From Hyphomicrobiales bacterium (GTDB taxonomy: Bacteria > Pseudomonadota > Alphaproteobacteria > Rhizobiales > Rhizobiaceae), in assembly GCA_900469445.1 (NCBI GenBank), contig UBXM01000010.1, positions 1-64,000 on the forward strand: a stretch of 64,000 nucleotides of DNA, read 5' to 3'. The notes below the pieces were generated by a model. It worked only from the letters and a program-made list of their open reading frames with translations, was not told the origin of the DNA and did no database searches. Shown here one piece after another: positions 41,716 to 54,979 of this stretch. Numbering within the stretch: the first letter of the stretch is position 1; every line of letters starts with the position of its first letter. The translations under genes and the position numbers were made by a program.

Positions 41716-41836
41716 GCGGTCCTGTCTTTCCCTGTTTACGTCTTTTAGTAAGACGCGTTATGCCATGCCAGTTCGGCGGACGAAAGTCCCGATCCGTCGA
41801 GTCAGTTTATGATTGTATTCCAGTGGAGAGGGAAGG

Positions 41837-42161
41837 TGAAGGCTTCTGTTGCCAGGTGCCTTCGGACCCCGCCTTACGGGGCTAACCGTAAGGACTTAGT
41901 TCGGAATTCCCGCACCGCCATTAGGCAGCGAGAGCGTATTCCTTAGCGTTGTTGTCGTTTGCAACTACACTTGTGACCCGATAACGGCGGTATCATGCCG
42001 AGCAAAAGTTCGATCTTTACACCCTTGTCGATCCTATTTCGCCCCCATCATAAAATGGCCTGATCATGCCATCTTGTGGTGGAGGCGCCGGGTACCGCCC
42101 CCGGGTCCAATAGGTTTATTACACCGACCGTTTATCGCCATATCCGGACCGAAGCCCGGCA
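41837..42161 (-). ncRNA. ssrA: Two-piece (permuted) tmRNA gene, alpha type
   Basis: tmRNA rescues stalled ribosomes and tags the peptide. On the minus strand the order is permuted. First comes the acceptor piece, with the T arm GGACCCGGGGGCGGTACCC and the 3' end CGCCTCCACCA finishing at 42077. A 30-base intervening segment (42047-42076) follows, then the coding piece starting GGGGGCGAAATAGGATCGAC at 42046. GGGGGCG and CGCCTCC pair to rebuild the acceptor stem. The tag frame 41962-41924 reads ANDNNAKEYALAA then TAA. The outer ends (about 42161 and about 41837, after an AAGGC/GCCTT hairpin) are estimates. Processing by removal of the intervening segment is known for the family and inferred here. 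Confidence 0.93.
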
Positions 42162-42167
42162 AGGCTG

Positions 42168-42196
42168 ATATAGGTGTTTGCGAGCGCCTTGAAAAG
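42168..42196 (-). promoter_or_regulatory. Predicted promoter of ssrA
   Basis: Read on the minus strand, CTTTTC (42196-42191) is followed 17 bases later by CTATAT (42173-42168). CTTGAC-N17-CTATAT is the consensus for housekeeping promoters in rhizobia, so the -10 is perfect and the -35 matches four of six. Transcription would begin about 42161, just before the leader hairpin CCGGGC-TTCG-GTCCGG. Confidence 0.6.
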
Positions 42197-42326
42197 AGGT
42201 CTTGTCATATTGGTGTGACGATCGTGAAAAGCGGGGGAAACCGAGTTTGCGTCACCGGGAGGTGATTGGTGTGCGGCCGGCATGCTATTATGTAAGTCGG
42301 AAATTCAGGAATCGGCGGCAACACCC

Positions 42327-49187: not shown

Positions 49188-50108
49188 ATGGAAAACCTTG
49201 TGCAAGACATCGACGCGATCCTGATAACCGGGCCGACGGCCAGCGGCAAGTCGGCGCTCGCCGTGCAACTGGCTCAGACGCGAAATGGTGTCGTCATCAA
49301 TGCCGACAGCATGCAGGTCTACGATACGCTACGTGTCCTGACGGCAAGGCCTGCGGATGAGGAAATGGAAGGCATTCCCCATCATCTTTACGGGCATGTG
49401 GCGGCTGCAAAGGCCTATTCGACAGGAGAATGGTTGCGGGACGTCACCGCGCTGCTGCCGGAAATTCGCGCCCGAGGCCAGCTGCCGGTCTTCGTCGGCG
49501 GTACCGGTCTTTATTTCAAGGCACTGACCGGTGGGCTATCGGACATGCCGGAAATTCCCCAGGAGATCCGTTGCGAGGTGCGTTTGAGGCTGAAGGAGGA
49601 AGGTCCCGAAGCGCTTTATGCCGAGCTTCAACGCAAGGATGCGGCGGTGGCCGGAACATTGGAAGTGCGGGACGGGCAAAGGATCGTCCGTGCGCTCGAA
49701 GTGCTGCAGGCCACGGGCCGATCGATTACCGATTTCCAGAGCCGACAGGGGCCGATGATCGTCGATCCAGGCCGCGCTCAGAAATTTGTCGTATTGCCGG
49801 ATCGGGCAGTCCTGCACGATCGCATCAATCGCCGGTTCGAGAAAATGCTGGATCTGGGGGCGATTGAAGAGGTACAGGCGCTGCTGACGCAGGACCCTGC
49901 AGCGGACTTGCCGGTGATGAAGGCGATCGGTGTTCGCGAGATCGCCGACATGCTCGACGGTAAAATGCTGCGGGAAGATGTGATCGAACGCAGTTCCGCC
50001 CTGACCCGGCAATATGCAAAACGGCAGATGACATGGTTCCGCAACCAGATGGATGAAAGCTGGAGCCGCATCGACGGATCGCCCGCGTCGGTTCAATCCT
50101 TGTCGTAA
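49188..50108 (+). CDS. miaA: tRNA dimethylallyltransferase
   Basis: Adds a dimethylallyl group to A37 of tRNAs reading UNN codons. The 306-residue product has the P-loop AILITGPTASGKSALAVQ, the tRNA-recognition NADSMQVYDTL, PHHLYGHV, VGGTGLYFKALTGGLSD and the C-terminal RQYAKRQMTWFRNQMD. ATG 49188 matches the family start; ATG 49158 inside serB would add ten residues. It is divergent from serB with no intergenic space, and its last 16 bases overlap the convergent HerA-like gene. Confidence 0.95.
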   Translation: MENLVQDIDAILITGPTASGKSALAVQLAQTRNGVVINADSMQVYDTLRVLTARPADEEMEGIPHHLYGHVAAAKAYSTGEWLRDVTALLPEIRARGQLPVFVGGTGLYFKALTGGLSDMPEIPQEIRCEVRLRLKEEGPEALYAELQRKDAAVAGTLEVRDGQRIVRALEVLQATGRSITDFQSRQGPMIVDPGRAQKFVVLPDRAVLHDRINRRFEKMLDLGAIEEVQALLTQDPAADLPVMKAIGVREIADMLDGKMLREDVIERSSALTRQYAKRQMTWFRNQMDESWSRIDGSPASVQSLS

Positions 50109-52147
50109 AGACTGCTCAACGGCTTCTTCAAAAGACTATCCCGGAACGAGCCTTCCCGTTTCAGAAATGGATTTGGCCTTGCAGCCGGTTCGGATGCGGG
50201 AGGCGGGGCGGGACGATCCCGCCAGGCGGCGCGGCTATCCAGCGGCGGCGTGGGCTCCACTCTGGTCGGTCTCGGCAACATATCGGGGCGGTAGGGCTCG
50301 GCCGATGAATTGGCTTTCGCCTCGGTCACGCTCGCCGGGCCGATCTCCTGCTTCCAGCGATCGAGTTCAGCGTCGCTTGCCGGACCAAAGTCACCTTGTG
50401 TGCCGGGCATGAAGGACGCGGCAGGCATGTTGCCGGCAGATTCGGCGGCGAGATAACTTTGCTGGAAGGCGCCGATATCTGGTCCTCCGCCAATCGAGCG
50501 CATGCGCGACACGATGGTGCGAAGGTCGACGGTATCGGGTGTTTCCTCGTGATTCTTGTCGACGATGCCGTGGGCCTTCGGCAGATGCTGTGAATCAACG
50601 TGGCTGAATTGCATTCTCATCGGGACCGCAATCGCCTCGCCGAAAGCGATCGCTTCGCCATTGCCGATCGACGAGAGGAAGCTGGTGGTGGAGATCGATG
50701 AGTTGGGGATTGCCGACCTGATAATGTCCTGGTCGCGATCGTTCGCCAGCCGCATGGCAAACAGCGTCGAGCACTGCGAGAGAATAGTCTGATCGAGCTC
50801 TCCCGGCCGTTGGGTGATGACGCCGAGGGAAACACCGTATTTGCGACCTTCCTTGGCAATGCGGGCAATTGCCTGACGGGTGGGAAGGAAGCCAAGTGTC
50901 GGGTCGGCCGGAACATAGCGGTGCGCTTCCTCGCAGACGACCAGCATATGGATGGCGCCGTTGCTCCACAGCGCAAGCTCGAAGGCCATCCGGCACAAGA
51001 TCGACGCGACCGAGTTGACGACTTCTGAGGGGATGCCGGCAAGCTGGAAGGTGGAAATCGGACGGTCGTCTCCGGGAATGCGGAATATATGTGCGATCGT
51101 CTCCATGATCGTGTCGTGGATCGTGTTGTTGGAGAACATGAAGTGATAGCGCGGATCGTTGATGGCGGAGACGATGCGCATTTTCAGCGACCGGAGGAAT
51201 GGTTTTTCGGCGCGGCCTTCCAGTCGACCGATGCGGTCGTCGATCAGGGCGAGCAGATCGGCCATGCGATAGGGAACCGGTGTATCGGCAGTGACCGAGC
51301 TTTTTTCAGCGGTCCTTCTGGTGAGGCTGGAATCGCTGCCGCGGAAGGCGCGCTTGGCCTCCGGTATCAGGTCGCGAAGCATATCCAGCTCTTCGGCGAC
51401 TGCGGGACGTCCGCGAAAAACCACTTCGGCAAATTCATCGAGCCGCATAAGCCAGAAAGGCAGGTCCAGCGTATCCGTGTCGATCGTCACCGCGTGTTCG
51501 GGAAAGGCTGCGGCAAACTCGTTATGAGGATCGAGGATCAGCACCCTGAGTTTCGGATCCGCCTCTATCGCCTTGTGCAGCAGAAGGGAAACGGCCGTCG
51601 ATTTGCCGACACCCGTGGAGCCGACGATGGCGAAATGTTTCGACAGCATGGTCGGCACATGGATCGAGGCGTCGATGCTCTCGTCCTGCGTCAGCTTGCC
51701 GATCACACAGGTTTCACTCTTGCCGGGATCATAGATCTTTACCAGATCCGCGGAGCGGATGCGGTGTGCGATGGCGCCAAGATATGGATATCGCGAGATG
51801 CCTCGGGAAAACTGTTCGCGCCCATCCGGACCGACCCGAACCTCACCCAATAGCTCGACTTCGATCAGGAATTTGGTGTCGTCATTTTCCGACCAGTCGC
51901 GGACGCCTGTCTGCATGGAATAGGCGAGCGCCACGACACGGTTCTTGCCAACAGTGATCGAGATGAGCTTGCCGACGGACCAGAGTTCGGTGAGTTCTGT
52001 TTCCCCGCGCTCGGCGACGGCGGCGATCGTGGCATGAGCGCCGTTGCATGCAACAACCCGCCCCAGGAAACGGTTGCCCGGTTTCATAGGGTCTCGACGA
52101 TCGTGTTCTCCGCTCAAGGAAGAACGATGAGGGTCGTCATTCTGCAA
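50093..52147 (-). CDS. HerA-like ATPase (DUF87)
   Basis: Hexameric-translocase-type ATPase of the FtsK/HerA group. The 684-residue product has an N-terminal HAS-barrel-like domain (FLGRVVACNGAHATIAAV; about 20-130), Walker A GSTGVGKST (176-184), a Walker B strand MLVVCEEAHRYV, the sensor stretch LGVITQRPGELDQTIL with a possible arginine finger beyond, and a disordered Pro/Ala/Arg-rich tail (590-684). No NurA nuclease or antiphage partner is adjacent, so this is probably the conserved stand-alone rhizobial form with unknown substrate. Start 52147 is uncertain; ATG 52087 (MKPGNRFLG) is equally plausible. Confidence 0.83.
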   Translation of the reverse strand: MQNDDPHRSSLSGEHDRRDPMKPGNRFLGRVVACNGAHATIAAVAERGETELTELWSVGKLISITVGKNRVVALAYSMQTGVRDWSENDDTKFLIEVELLGEVRVGPDGREQFSRGISRYPYLGAIAHRIRSADLVKIYDPGKSETCVIGKLTQDESIDASIHVPTMLSKHFAIVGSTGVGKSTAVSLLLHKAIEADPKLRVLILDPHNEFAAAFPEHAVTIDTDTLDLPFWLMRLDEFAEVVFRGRPAVAEELDMLRDLIPEAKRAFRGSDSSLTRRTAEKSSVTADTPVPYRMADLLALIDDRIGRLEGRAEKPFLRSLKMRIVSAINDPRYHFMFSNNTIHDTIMETIAHIFRIPGDDRPISTFQLAGIPSEVVNSVASILCRMAFELALWSNGAIHMLVVCEEAHRYVPADPTLGFLPTRQAIARIAKEGRKYGVSLGVITQRPGELDQTILSQCSTLFAMRLANDRDQDIIRSAIPNSSISTTSFLSSIGNGEAIAFGEAIAVPMRMQFSHVDSQHLPKAHGIVDKNHEETPDTVDLRTIVSRMRSIGGGPDIGAFQQSYLAAESAGNMPAASFMPGTQGDFGPASDAELDRWKQEIGPASVTEAKANSSAEPYRPDMLPRPTRVEPTPPLDSRAAWRDRPAPPPASEPAARPNPFLKREGSFRDSLLKKPLSSLYDKD

Positions 52148-52348
52148 AAGGCGCCCCTGTCATTGGGGTAGGAATTAGGCCCGCGTCCGGGCTGCGTACT
52201 GAAAAAGCAAATTATGACCTGCCGCTTAACAACTGGTATAGGCCTTGGACGAAGAGCCTGCCTGCAGCCCCAAAAACAAGGTTCTTTCGAGACTTTTGCT
52301 CAAAGGCTGCGTTGACGCGTAACCATTATGCGGCTAACACTCGCACCC
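52148..52348. other. Intergenic region upstream of the ilv leader
   Basis: Between the HerA-like gene and the ilv leader. It holds the predicted ilv promoter at its right edge and presumably the promoter of the HerA-like gene on the other strand. Nothing else was recognised. Confidence 0.4.
52312..52340 (+). promoter_or_regulatory. Predicted promoter of the ilv leader
   Basis: TTGACG (52312-52317) is followed after 17 bases by TAACAC (52335-52340). The -35 is near consensus and the -10 is weak. A start seven to nine bases after the -10 falls at 52347-52349, on the first base of the leader ATG, so the leader may be leaderless. Confidence 0.5.
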
Positions 52349-52405
52349 ATGAAAATTTCGATCGCTCTTATTGTGGTGGGAACGCGCATGGGCAGGATGG
52401 TGTAA
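52349..52405 (+). CDS. Predicted ilv attenuator leader peptide
   Basis: The 18-codon frame MKISIALIVVGTRMGRMV is rich in the branched-chain residues (three Ile, one Leu, three Val). It is immediately followed by RNA hairpins and a terminator, then ilvI. This is the classic arrangement for ribosome-mediated attenuation, in which stalling at Ile/Leu/Val codons keeps transcription going. An in-frame ATG at 52328 would lengthen it to 25 residues, but it lies between the predicted promoter boxes. No ribosome site is visible, which fits a leaderless start as described for trpL of Sinorhizobium. Confidence 0.75.
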   Translation: MKISIALIVVGTRMGRMV

Positions 52406-52463
52406 CCATCCGGCGATAGCCACCCATGCGCGAAAAGACAGGCTCCTCAAGGGGCCTTTTTTT
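52383..52463 (+). promoter_or_regulatory. ilv attenuator hairpins and terminator
   Basis: A perfect ten-base-pair stem CGCGCATGGG (52383-52392) with CCCATGCGCG (52423-52432) encloses an inner hairpin GGATGG (52395-52400) with CCATCC (52406-52411), overlapping the leader stop. An intrinsic terminator follows: GGCTCC (52441-52446), loop TCAA, GGGGCC (52451-52456), then seven T. GGTGGG (52375-52380) can alternatively pair with CCACCC (52420-52425). A clear antiterminator pairing to the GGCTCC arm was not found by eye. Confidence 0.8.
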
Positions 52464-52572
52464 ATGCCTTGTTTCCGGTCGATCATCTCAACACAAAAGA
52501 CCGGAAGCAAAAAACTCCAGCAGCAATCCCGGCCATTGCAGATATAAAGGCCAGACCCCAGGAGGACAGGAC

Positions 52573-54360
52573 ATGACGGATACGGCGGATAACGGCAACC
52601 GAATGACAGGCGCCGAAATCGTGCTTCGCGCTTTGAAGGACAATGGCGTCGAGCATATTTTCGGTTATCCCGGTGGCGCCGTACTTCCGATCTATGACGA
52701 GATTTTCCAGCAGGAAGACATCCAGCACATTCTCGTCCGTCATGAACAGGGCGCCGGCCATGCGGCCGAAGGGTATGCCCGCTCCACCGGCAAGGTCGGC
52801 GTCATGCTGGTCACCTCCGGCCCCGGCGCGACCAATGCGGTGACACCGCTGCAGGACGCGCTGATGGACAGCATTCCGCTCGTCTGCCTGACCGGACAGG
52901 TTCCGACCACACTGATCGGCTCGGATGCGTTTCAAGAGGCAGATACGGTCGGCATCACGCGGCCCTGCACCAAGCACAACTGGCTGGTGAAGGACGTCAA
53001 CGACCTGGCCGGCATCATCCACGAAGCGTTCCGTATCGCCCAGAGCGGCCGTCCCGGCCCGGTTGTCGTCGATATTCCGAAGGATATCCAATTCGCGACC
53101 GGCACTTATGTGCCGCCATCCGAGGCGACCGCCAGCAAGAGCTACAAGCCGAAGGTCGAAGGTGATCTGAAGGCAATCCAGGCTGCCGTCGAGCTGATGG
53201 CGAGCGCGCGTCGCCCGATCCTCTATACCGGCGGCGGTGTCATCAATGCCGGCCCGGAAGCCTCCAAGCTGCTGCGTGAGCTGGTCGAGCTGACCGATTT
53301 CCCAATCACCTCGACGCTGATGGGTCTCGGCGCTTATCCGGCATCGGGCAAGAACTGGCTCGGCATGCTCGGCATGCACGGTTCCTACGAAGCCAATATG
53401 GCCATGCACGATTGCGACGTCATGGTCTGCATCGGCGCGCGTTTCGACGACCGCATTACCGGCCGTCTGAACGCGTTCTCGCCGAATTCGCGCAAGGTCC
53501 ATATCGATATCGATCCGTCGTCGATCAACAAAAACGTACGCGTCGATATCCCGATCATCGGCGATGTCGGTCATGTTCTGGAAGACATGGTGCGCCTGTG
53601 GCGGGCGCTGCCGAAAAAGCCGGAAAAGGCGCAGGCCGCAGAATGGCGTGCATCGATCGAAACCTGGCGTGCACGCAAGTCGTTCTCCTACAAGAACTCG
53701 AATGACGTGATCATGCCGCAATATGCGCTGGAGCGCCTTGCGGAGGCGACCAAGGGCCGCGACACCTACATCACGACCGAGGTTGGCCAGCACCAGATGT
53801 GGGCGGCGCAGTTCTTCGGTTTCGAAGAGCCGAACCATTGGATGACCTCCGGCGGTCTCGGCACGATGGGCTACGGCCTGCCGGCAGCGCTCGGCGTGCA
53901 GGTGGCGCATCCGGAGGCTCTTGTCATAGACATTGCCGGCGATGCGTCGATCCAGATGTGTATCCAGGAAATGTCCTGCGCCATCCAGCATAACCTGCCG
54001 GTCAAGATCTTCATCCTGAACAATCAATATATGGGCATGGTGCGCCAGTGGCAGCAGCTGCTGCACGGCAACCGCCTGTCCAACTCCTACACGGAAGCGA
54101 TGCCTGATTTCGTCAAGCTGGCGGAAGCTTACGGTGCTGTCGGCATGTATTGCGACGATCCGAAGGAACTGGACGGCAAGATCGCCGAGATGATCGCCGT
54201 TAAGGCGCCGGTCATCTTCGACTGCCGTGTCGCCAATCTCGCAAACTGCTTCCCGATGATTCCGTCGGGCAAGGCACATAACGAGATGCTGCTCCCGGAT
54301 GAAGCTTCCGACGAAGCTGTTGCAACCGCCATCGATGCGAAGGGCCGCCAGCTCGTTTGA
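52573..54360 (+). CDS. ilvI: Acetolactate synthase large subunit
   Basis: TPP- and FAD-dependent catalytic subunit for the first common step of valine, leucine and isoleucine synthesis. The 595-residue product has the TPP-Glu region HEQGAGHAAEGYARSTGKVG, the FAD/regulatory centre and the C-terminal TPP-Mg motif IDIAGDASIQMCIQEM ending ILNNQYMGMVRQWQQ. GGAGG lies eight bases before ATG 52573; the open frame further upstream runs through the terminator and is not used. It is followed 46 bases later by the small subunit. Regulation by the upstream attenuator is inferred. Confidence 0.97.
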   Translation: MTDTADNGNRMTGAEIVLRALKDNGVEHIFGYPGGAVLPIYDEIFQQEDIQHILVRHEQGAGHAAEGYARSTGKVGVMLVTSGPGATNAVTPLQDALMDSIPLVCLTGQVPTTLIGSDAFQEADTVGITRPCTKHNWLVKDVNDLAGIIHEAFRIAQSGRPGPVVVDIPKDIQFATGTYVPPSEATASKSYKPKVEGDLKAIQAAVELMASARRPILYTGGGVINAGPEASKLLRELVELTDFPITSTLMGLGAYPASGKNWLGMLGMHGSYEANMAMHDCDVMVCIGARFDDRITGRLNAFSPNSRKVHIDIDPSSINKNVRVDIPIIGDVGHVLEDMVRLWRALPKKPEKAQAAEWRASIETWRARKSFSYKNSNDVIMPQYALERLAEATKGRDTYITTEVGQHQMWAAQFFGFEEPNHWMTSGGLGTMGYGLPAALGVQVAHPEALVIDIAGDASIQMCIQEMSCAIQHNLPVKIFILNNQYMGMVRQWQQLLHGNRLSNSYTEAMPDFVKLAEAYGAVGMYCDDPKELDGKIAEMIAVKAPVIFDCRVANLANCFPMIPSGKAHNEMLLPDEASDEAVATAIDAKGRQLV

Positions 54361-54406: not shown

Positions 54407-54979
54407 ATGAACGCACATCAGCAACCGACCGGCTCGGCCTATTTCATCAGCCCGGAGACCGCCAAGGTCGAGAGCCACACGCTATCGGTTCTCGTCACCA
54501 ACGAACCGGGCGTGCTTGCCCGCGTCATCGGCCTTTTCTCCGGTCGCGGCTACAACATCGAAAGCCTCACCGTTTCGGAAACGGAACACGAATCTCACCT
54601 GTCGCGCATCACCATCGTTACCAACGGCACGCCGACGGTGCTTGAACAGATCAAGGCACAGCTCGAGCGCATCGTGCCGGTACATCGCGTCGTCGACCTG
54701 ACGGTGCGCGCTGGTCAGCTTGGCCAGGAGCGTCCGATCGAGCGCGAGGTGGCGCTGATCAAGGTCGCCGGAACGGGCGAAAGCCGTGCCGAAGTTCTGC
54801 GCCTTGCCGACGCTTTCCAGGCGAAGGTCGTCGATGCGACGGTCGGTCATTTCATCTTCGAGATCACCGGAAAGTCCTCCAAGATCGATCAGTTCGTCGC
54901 GGTGGTCAAGCCGCTCGGGCTGATCGAAGTCTGCCGCACCGGCATCGCGGCGATGAACCGTGGCCCGCAGGGCATGTAA
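54407..54979 (+). CDS. ilvH: Acetolactate synthase small subunit
   Basis: Regulatory subunit that confers valine feedback inhibition. The 190-residue product has the N-terminal ACT domain (HTLSVLVTNEPGVLARVIGL; FSGRGYNIESLTVSETE) and the C-terminal ALS_ss domain (EREVALIKVAGTGESRAEVL; ATVGHFIFEITGKSSKID). The start has AAGGAA about ten bases before ATG 54407. It is cotranscribed with ilvI. Confidence 0.97.
   Translation: MNAHQQPTGSAYFISPETAKVESHTLSVLVTNEPGVLARVIGLFSGRGYNIESLTVSETEHESHLSRITIVTNGTPTVLEQIKAQLERIVPVHRVVDLTVRAGQLGQERPIEREVALIKVAGTGESRAEVLRLADAFQAKVVDATVGHFIFEITGKSSKIDQFVAVVKPLGLIEVCRTGIAAMNRGPQGM

Follow-up and report, generated by a model that had tools for sequence, protein, structure and literature searches.

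A putatively leaderless Ile/Leu/Val leader ahead of ilvIH in Rhizobiales, matching the RNA family RF02502

The RNA leader preceding the acetolactate synthase genes ilvIH in a Hyphomicrobiales (Rhizobiaceae) genome is a member of the known RNA family RF02502 ("Atu_C8"). It is probably a leader-peptide attenuator of ilvIH, in which a leaderless frame would be translated and a ribosome-controlled stem, P1, would alter termination in the place of a classical antiterminator. By this, a function in cis is proposed for an RNA that has been catalogued as an sRNA only. The locus lies in a window of 64,000 nucleotides, i.e., the whole stretch of DNA that was analysed (assembly GCA_900469445.1, contig UBXM01000010.1, positions 1 to 64,000 of the forward strand).

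Leader locus and RNA family

The original prediction described an Ile/Leu/Val-rich frame of 18 codons, nested hairpins and a T-tailed terminator ahead of ilvI, and all of these parts are present (Table 1). Seven of the 18 codons specify isoleucine, leucine or valine, P1 encloses P2 and P3 in the fold, and the terminator consists of a 7-bp stem and seven Ts, with 7 nt separating it from P1. The start of P1 lies 7 nt past the first base of the second Val codon in Ile-Val-Val, and the leader stop codon (52403-52405) sits at the loop of P2.

Table 1. Features of the ilv leader region, in positions of the window
Feature	Position	Strand	Basis
Promoter: TTGACG 52312-52317, 17-nt spacer, TAACAC 52335-52340	52312..52340	+	sequence; TTGAC kept in relatives
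Putatively leaderless leader ORF MKISIALIVVGTRMGRMV, including stop; transcription would start at the A of its ATG	52349..52405	+	
Leader RNA	52349..52473	+	RF02502 match covers 52351-52473
P1 stem, 10 bp: 52383-52392 with 52423-52432	52383..52432	+	fold, alignment
P2, inside P1	52395-52401 with 52405-52411	+	fold
P3, inside P1, small, 3 bp	52412-52414 with 52419-52421	+	fold
Intrinsic terminator AGGCTCC-TCAA-GGGGCCT: 52440-52446 with 52451-52457, T run 52457-52463	52440..52463	+	fold; conserved in alignment
ilvI, acetolactate synthase large subunit; SD AGGAGG just upstream	52573..54360	+	named from sequence
ilvH, small subunit	54407..54979	+	named from sequence and position

Several neighbouring features were observed besides. 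Directly after the terminator, a perfect 8-bp inverted repeat (TTCCGGTC / GACCGGAA) occupies 52473-52506, and some relatives, e.g., locus L006, feature a different inverted repeat at the same place. Divergent from the leader, a 684-aa ORF on the minus strand (50093-52147) with the P-loop GSTGVGKST resembles a HerA-type ATPase in sequence. The minus strand also carries an alphaproteobacterial tmRNA at 41835-42199 (RF01849, 296 bits), to which the permuted tmRNA family matches as well.

The covariance model of RF02502 matched the leader over model positions 1-122 with 122.7 bits, compared to a gathering score of 50 (E 1.1e-26), and no other Rfam family was found at the leader. The 5' edge of the match, 52351, is the G of the ATG and thus at most 2 bases away from the leader start. 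Rfam describes RF02502 as a Rhizobiales sRNA, nothing more; for this same element, matched at full length, the leader ORF, the putative leaderless start and the ilvI and MFS contexts are added here. At E<=0.001, the family occurs in 217 of the 397 sampled genomes of the order (72 above the cut-off), and the 14 control genomes have no match. Sampling of the window's own family gave 146 of 151 genomes with RF02502, the five genomes without it being 1.2-2.0 Mb in size, and all of the 100 sampled genomes of genus g2 contain it. The window's genome holds a single copy, at ilvI.

Two partly overlapping collections of loci were compared. The first comprises 130 fetched loci and is not random, as it was drawn from the matches listed by taking the best 30, second copies and additional rows. 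Downstream of the leader, an IlvI homolog was found in 119 of these loci, in line with the predicted ilv identity, and an MFS gene in 10 (one of them, L037, assigned via record L198 on the same contig), with one locus being too short to test. The IlvI homologs 3' of the leader show ~68-97% identity, and a single match of 36 residues, located where a contig ends, 61%. The second, named set of at least 119 loci was found by a pattern of P2 and the P1 3' arm, i.e., without using the promoter, and includes Rhizobium, Agrobacterium, Neorhizobium, Mesorhizobium, Ensifer, Shinella, Brucella and others (titles for 80). Because the Agrobacterium genomes of L135, L191 and L208 contain one RF02502 copy each, preceding ilvI, the Agrobacterium RNA called Atu_C8 is probably the ilvI leader.

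The membership in a known Rfam family had been missed by the original prediction, as had the copies before an MFS gene and an earlier listing of the element: for the closely related S. meliloti, an element at ilvIH is tabulated as cis-regulatory RNA with reference to Vitreschak 2004 (PMC2573895). RF02502 itself is named as a benchmark entry in one paper (PMC5913331). Among the open-licence papers listed, there was no report linking RF02502 to ilvI, no leaderless ilv leader in rhizobia and no ilv-type leader ahead of an MFS gene.

Start of the leader

Transcription of the leader would start at the leader ATG itself, as had been predicted from the promoter-like pair, and this putative leaderless start has strong support at the sequence level. 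Among the matches listed, TTGAC precedes the leader ATG by 35-38 nt in every one of the 119 named relatives, the distance being 37 nt in 76, 38 nt in 25, 36 nt in 16 and 35 nt in 2 of them. Elsewhere within -150 to -1, TTGAC occurs just 14 times in total over these 119 sequences. A -10-like hexamer ends 6-8 nt before the ATG in all 119 as well, with its spacing being less telling than that of TTGAC since the best of five spacings was taken; in the window, 8 nt lie between the end of TAACAC and the ATG at 52349. An SD 4-mer (GGAG, GAGG or AGGA) was found at -20 to -4 in none of these 119 relatives. In the named set, in-frame ATGs lying 12-24 codons ahead of the stop served as candidates, mostly a single one per locus, and preference was given to an ATG with TTGAC 34-40 nt upstream. 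Likewise, the start choice in the survey of the 130 loci favoured an ATG with TTGAC, and the leader start of L063 is probably misassigned.

In the 130-locus survey, TTGAC is situated 34-39 nt from the start in 52 leaders and an SD-like 4-mer is present in 51; L121 carries both signals, and 28 leaders carry none. TTGAC without SD characterizes the window's own family (f1; 20/20 ilv and 5/5 MFS loci), f23 (15/15), f28 (4/4) and the MFS copies of f6 (5/5). SD-like leaders were found in the ilvI copies of f6 (17/18, mostly with GTG starts), in f11 (13/14), f27 (4/5), f16 (5/7) and f41 (7/13), and most loci of f18, f43 and most single-member families show neither signal. Five f6 genomes even harbour a leaderless-type MFS leader alongside an SD-led-type ilvI leader. 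Related families would hence differ in whether the leader of one and the same kind of attenuator is SD-led or leaderless. The SD-led leaders of other families, e.g., f6 and f11, also give some ground to a start further upstream, with an ordinary 5' untranslated region and a ribosome site. Nevertheless, this is highly improbable for the leader studied here, considering the fixed TTGAC distance and the missing SD 4-mer in the 119 listed relatives and the same pattern in the 20 own-family ilv loci.

In line with the predicted likeness to the leaderless trpL of Sinorhizobium, the trpL of the window's own genome (MTISMNNNGNWWWAR; L264, contig C47) reads TTGCGC-N17-TAACAA-N8-ATG and shares the spacing from -10 to ATG with the ilv leader. 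In S. meliloti, the 5' end of the trp leader RNA is the ATG, and the RNA is an attenuator before a biosynthetic gene, too (trpL/rnTrpL/peTrpL; PMC7298713). Translation of this leaderless trp leader was detected by Ribo-seq (PMC10117765; 'ilv' does not appear in the text consulted), and 171 leaderless starts were mapped in this organism (PMC3616915; 'ilv' is absent from the main text consulted). Similarly, the leader mRNA of ilvBNC in Corynebacterium glutamicum has been treated as leaderless, with a start one nucleotide from the start codon (PMC11857589), and the ilvBNC/ilvB-II motif features an Ile/Leu/Val upstream frame as well. The ilv attenuator would resemble S. meliloti trpL as well as C. 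glutamicum ilvBNC in being leaderless.

RNA structure and control of termination

Evidence for translation of the leader frame and for P1 and P2 comes from 58 non-redundant sequences (window included). Between ATG and P1, Ile, Leu and Val account for 54.7% of the codons in frame, whereas the two alternative frames contain 13.1% and 2.8%. In 53 of the 57 sequences scored, ATG and P1 are 29, 32, 35 or 38 nt apart, i.e., the distance changes by multiples of three; the remaining distances are pattern artefacts, caused by a GCGCGC (or GCGT) run that misled the match. For P1, 99.8% of cells are paired; three of its nine pairs are invariant, and another three have changes on both sides, each in a single sequence. 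In P2, pairing amounts to 93.7% of cells, and four of its pairs changed on both sides (in 22, 21, 4 and 1 sequences), with the outermost pair failing in 21 of the 58 sequences. For the covariation check suggested along with the original prediction, this makes P1 conserved and P2 covarying. P3 is paired in 90.3% with no changes on both sides and does not appear in the RNAalifold consensus of the 58 sequences, and for the terminator, whose alignment is imperfect, pairing amounts to 89.4%. The covariation score of the whole structure was reached by none of 500 shuffles, a figure which is not a probability.

A ribosome might also act on the terminator directly, as in a pyrBI-like arrangement, by melting it during translation of a second frame that begins at ATG 52426. 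This frame stays open through the terminator into ilvI in the window, and from the matching ATG it passes the T run in 81 of 125 distinct loci (raw count). Still, it does not do so in the other 44, it is reduced to the two codons MR* in many Rhizobium loci and in the Agrobacterium loci L135, L176, L191 and L208, and no SD precedes ATG 52426. The candidate was rejected because the frame is not conserved, and hardly any credence is left for it.

The absence of an antiterminator, noted by eye in the original prediction, is in agreement with a computation on the nascent RNA that included positive controls. The probability of the terminator at equilibrium had been dropped as a measure: the terminator forms at equilibrium for nearly any ribosome position on the ilv leader, and the test is uninformative because five E. 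coli attenuators behave alike (0.98-1.00). Instead, the energy cost of keeping the terminator 5' arm unpaired before the 3' arm is transcribed was determined. At the control codons, this cost is 13.5 kcal/mol for E. coli thrL, 8.4 for leuL, 9.3 for trpL, 6.8 for hisL and 11.9 for ilvL; for hisL, a signal of 2.5 kcal/mol, not zero, remains at the stop. The trpL of the window's own genome reaches 10.6 kcal/mol at its Trp codons and 0.1 at its stop. All six controls were positive, each being reached by 0-2 of 40 dinucleotide shuffles. In contrast to the clear antiterminator of this trpL, the ilv leader of the window attains a maximum of 1.5 kcal/mol around V9-G11, a value reached by 36 of 40 shuffles (shuffle mean 3.7), and 2.8 kcal/mol at codon 18. 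Both leaders share the leaderless geometry, and the trpL of the same genome provides a built-in contrast: the ilv leader would sense the ribosome, yet it yielded no textbook antiterminator.

The other leaders of the order behave similarly. Only two of 130 Rhizobiales leaders (L066 and L115, hence not the window's) beat their shuffles in the nascent-RNA test, corresponding to 2/120 non-MFS and 0/10 MFS leaders, and the medians are 3.3 vs. 4.2 kcal/mol in shuffles for the former and 2.5 vs. 4.0 for the latter. This final run, in which terminators were called more strictly, covered all 130 loci and led to the same conclusion as an earlier run of 98 leaders (six of them preceding MFS genes), from which near-duplicates, single-member families, L036, L037 and wrongly called terminators had been excluded. 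The wrong calls concerned L022, L026, L083, L111 and L065, with L037 being called normally. In the 98-leader run, the family medians were at z -1.0 to +1.1 relative to shuffles, and f27 stood out with 8.2 vs. 4.9. For the named set among the matches listed, 97 distinct ilv and 9 MFS leaders were left after removal of duplicates and truncated ends, and the ilv leaders showed a median of at most 2.1 and a 90th percentile of at most 3.8 kcal/mol at every one of the final 16 codon positions. In addition, the RNAalifold consensus of the 58 sequences contains no upstream pairing of the terminator 5' arm. A classical antiterminator was thus not found in the ilv leader, as tested. Other members of the order may possess weak antiterminators, since 11 of 120 non-MFS leaders reach at least 6.8 kcal/mol (L028, L031, L055, L066, L076, L099, L106, L111, L114, L115 and L118; none of f1) and L066 and L115 beat their shuffles.

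Canonical trp-type attenuation would still apply if nearest-neighbour folding had missed a weak, pseudoknotted or protein-assisted antiterminator in an otherwise identical leaderless attenuator. Every other part of the leader is canonical, and values of at least 7 kcal/mol do occur in three of five f27 leaders (8-9, at Val/Pro codons) and, at 7-9, in f23 (3/14), f16 (1/7) and f28 (1/4), with the terminator 5' arm pairing upstream in some of these folds. Moreover, a short overlapping terminator/antiterminator pair has been proposed and mutated in C. glutamicum ilvBNC (PMC11857589), in which respect this system differs from the ilv leader, and a short, low-energy switch of that type might score low in the nascent-RNA test. 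Nevertheless, the success of the test in all six controls as opposed to two Rhizobiales leaders, the inconspicuous family medians and the consensus fold make a hidden antiterminator rather unlikely, even if it has to be taken seriously.

The preferred model, i.e., control of termination by the state of P1, starts with a sigma-70-type promoter that would initiate transcription at the first base of the leader frame, and 70S ribosomes would then start on the 5'-terminal AUG. Under a shortage of charged Val (or Ile/Leu) tRNA, the ribosome is expected to stall at the respective codons and, at the Val codons, to cover the base of P1; if charged tRNA is sufficient, it would run on to the stop codon in P2. 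The open or closed state of P1 directly before the terminator may then change the efficiency of termination, with no antiterminator replacing the terminator. We infer this effect of P1 from its position and conservation, and the model was chosen because no helix sequestering the terminator 5' arm was found. Terminated transcripts would equal the ~120-nt RNA catalogued as Atu_C8.

Alternatively, termination could be nearly constitutive and the actual product a trans-acting sRNA and/or leader peptide like rnTrpL/peTrpL, with control of ilvI in cis being minor. RF02502 is typed as an sRNA by Rfam, the ilv leader yielded no antiterminator and both rnTrpL and peTrpL act in trans in S. meliloti (PMC7298713), although within the literature covered trans action has been published for trpL only. 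However, the Ile/Leu/Val run before P1 and the ilvI gene downstream are kept together in the fetched loci of numerous families, which fits control in cis and renders a mainly trans-acting product improbable.

With regard to known classes, the leader resembles trp-type attenuators in its short frame of pathway codons and in the intrinsic terminator that separates this frame from the cognate biosynthetic gene. It is nevertheless not classed among them, because no antiterminator sequestering the terminator 5' arm upon a stall at the control codons was found. The missing ribosome-binding site before the leader (0/119 listed named relatives) corresponds to leaderless attenuators of the S. meliloti trpL kind. 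Taken together, it would work like a branched-chain leader attenuator and appears to fit the leaderless kind. The E. coli ilvL leader (ilvGMEDA) likewise combines a branched-chain leader peptide with a terminator but differs by its 32-residue peptide and its strong antiterminator. Caulobacter ilvL is an alphaproteobacterial ilv attenuator, too, with tandem Ile and Val codons (PMC4117421, in the part consulted), yet Caulobacter vibrioides is among the names of the control genomes, in all of which RF02502 was missing.

Copies ahead of an efflux gene and a second synthase

In Rhizobium, Mesorhizobium and family f6, a second copy of the leader is located ahead of an MFS gene of the Bcr/CflA-like type. 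This arrangement accounts for the ten MFS loci of the fetched set (L032, L009, L034, L036 and L037 of f1; L020-L023 and L026 of f6) and for nine of the 119 listed named loci, with overlap between both sets. In genus g2, an MFS homolog at E<=1e-80 was found in 52 of 100 genomes, and the best 30 of these loci feature a leader with the TTGAC-ATG geometry in 29 of 29 testable cases, the 30th having 2 nt of upstream sequence. Two f6 proteins score 210.8 and 211.2 with TIGR00710 (Bcr/CflA), i.e., above the cut-off of 200.9, and three f1 proteins remain below it (163-173); the proteins of both families share 47-53% identity. By sequence, the best solved structure for the MFS protein is 2gfp, multidrug resistance protein D. 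The window's own genome contains no orthologous MFS protein (best 25% identity).

A branched-chain leader before an MFS efflux gene constitutes an unexpected link between amino-acid supply and efflux. As a tentative explanation, which is possible but by no means favoured, a portable leaderless Ile/Leu/Val module with stem-controlled termination could have been recruited from ilvIH to a pump of the Bcr/CflA kind, making the pump respond to branched-chain tRNA charging or to ribosome stalling generally, e.g., by translation inhibitors.

In a third context, found in some Rhizobium genomes, the leader precedes a second acetolactate synthase with 68-73% identity to the IlvI of the window. These genomes also hold an IlvI of 86-87% identity (L033 with L007; L275 with L268), and L166 is probably another such locus. 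Besides, three pairs of f11 loci (L043/L044, L045/L046 and L047/L048) each represent two leaders ~2.7 kb apart in one genome, both before an IlvI homolog, which is apparently due to a tandem duplication of the IlvI homolog together with its leader.
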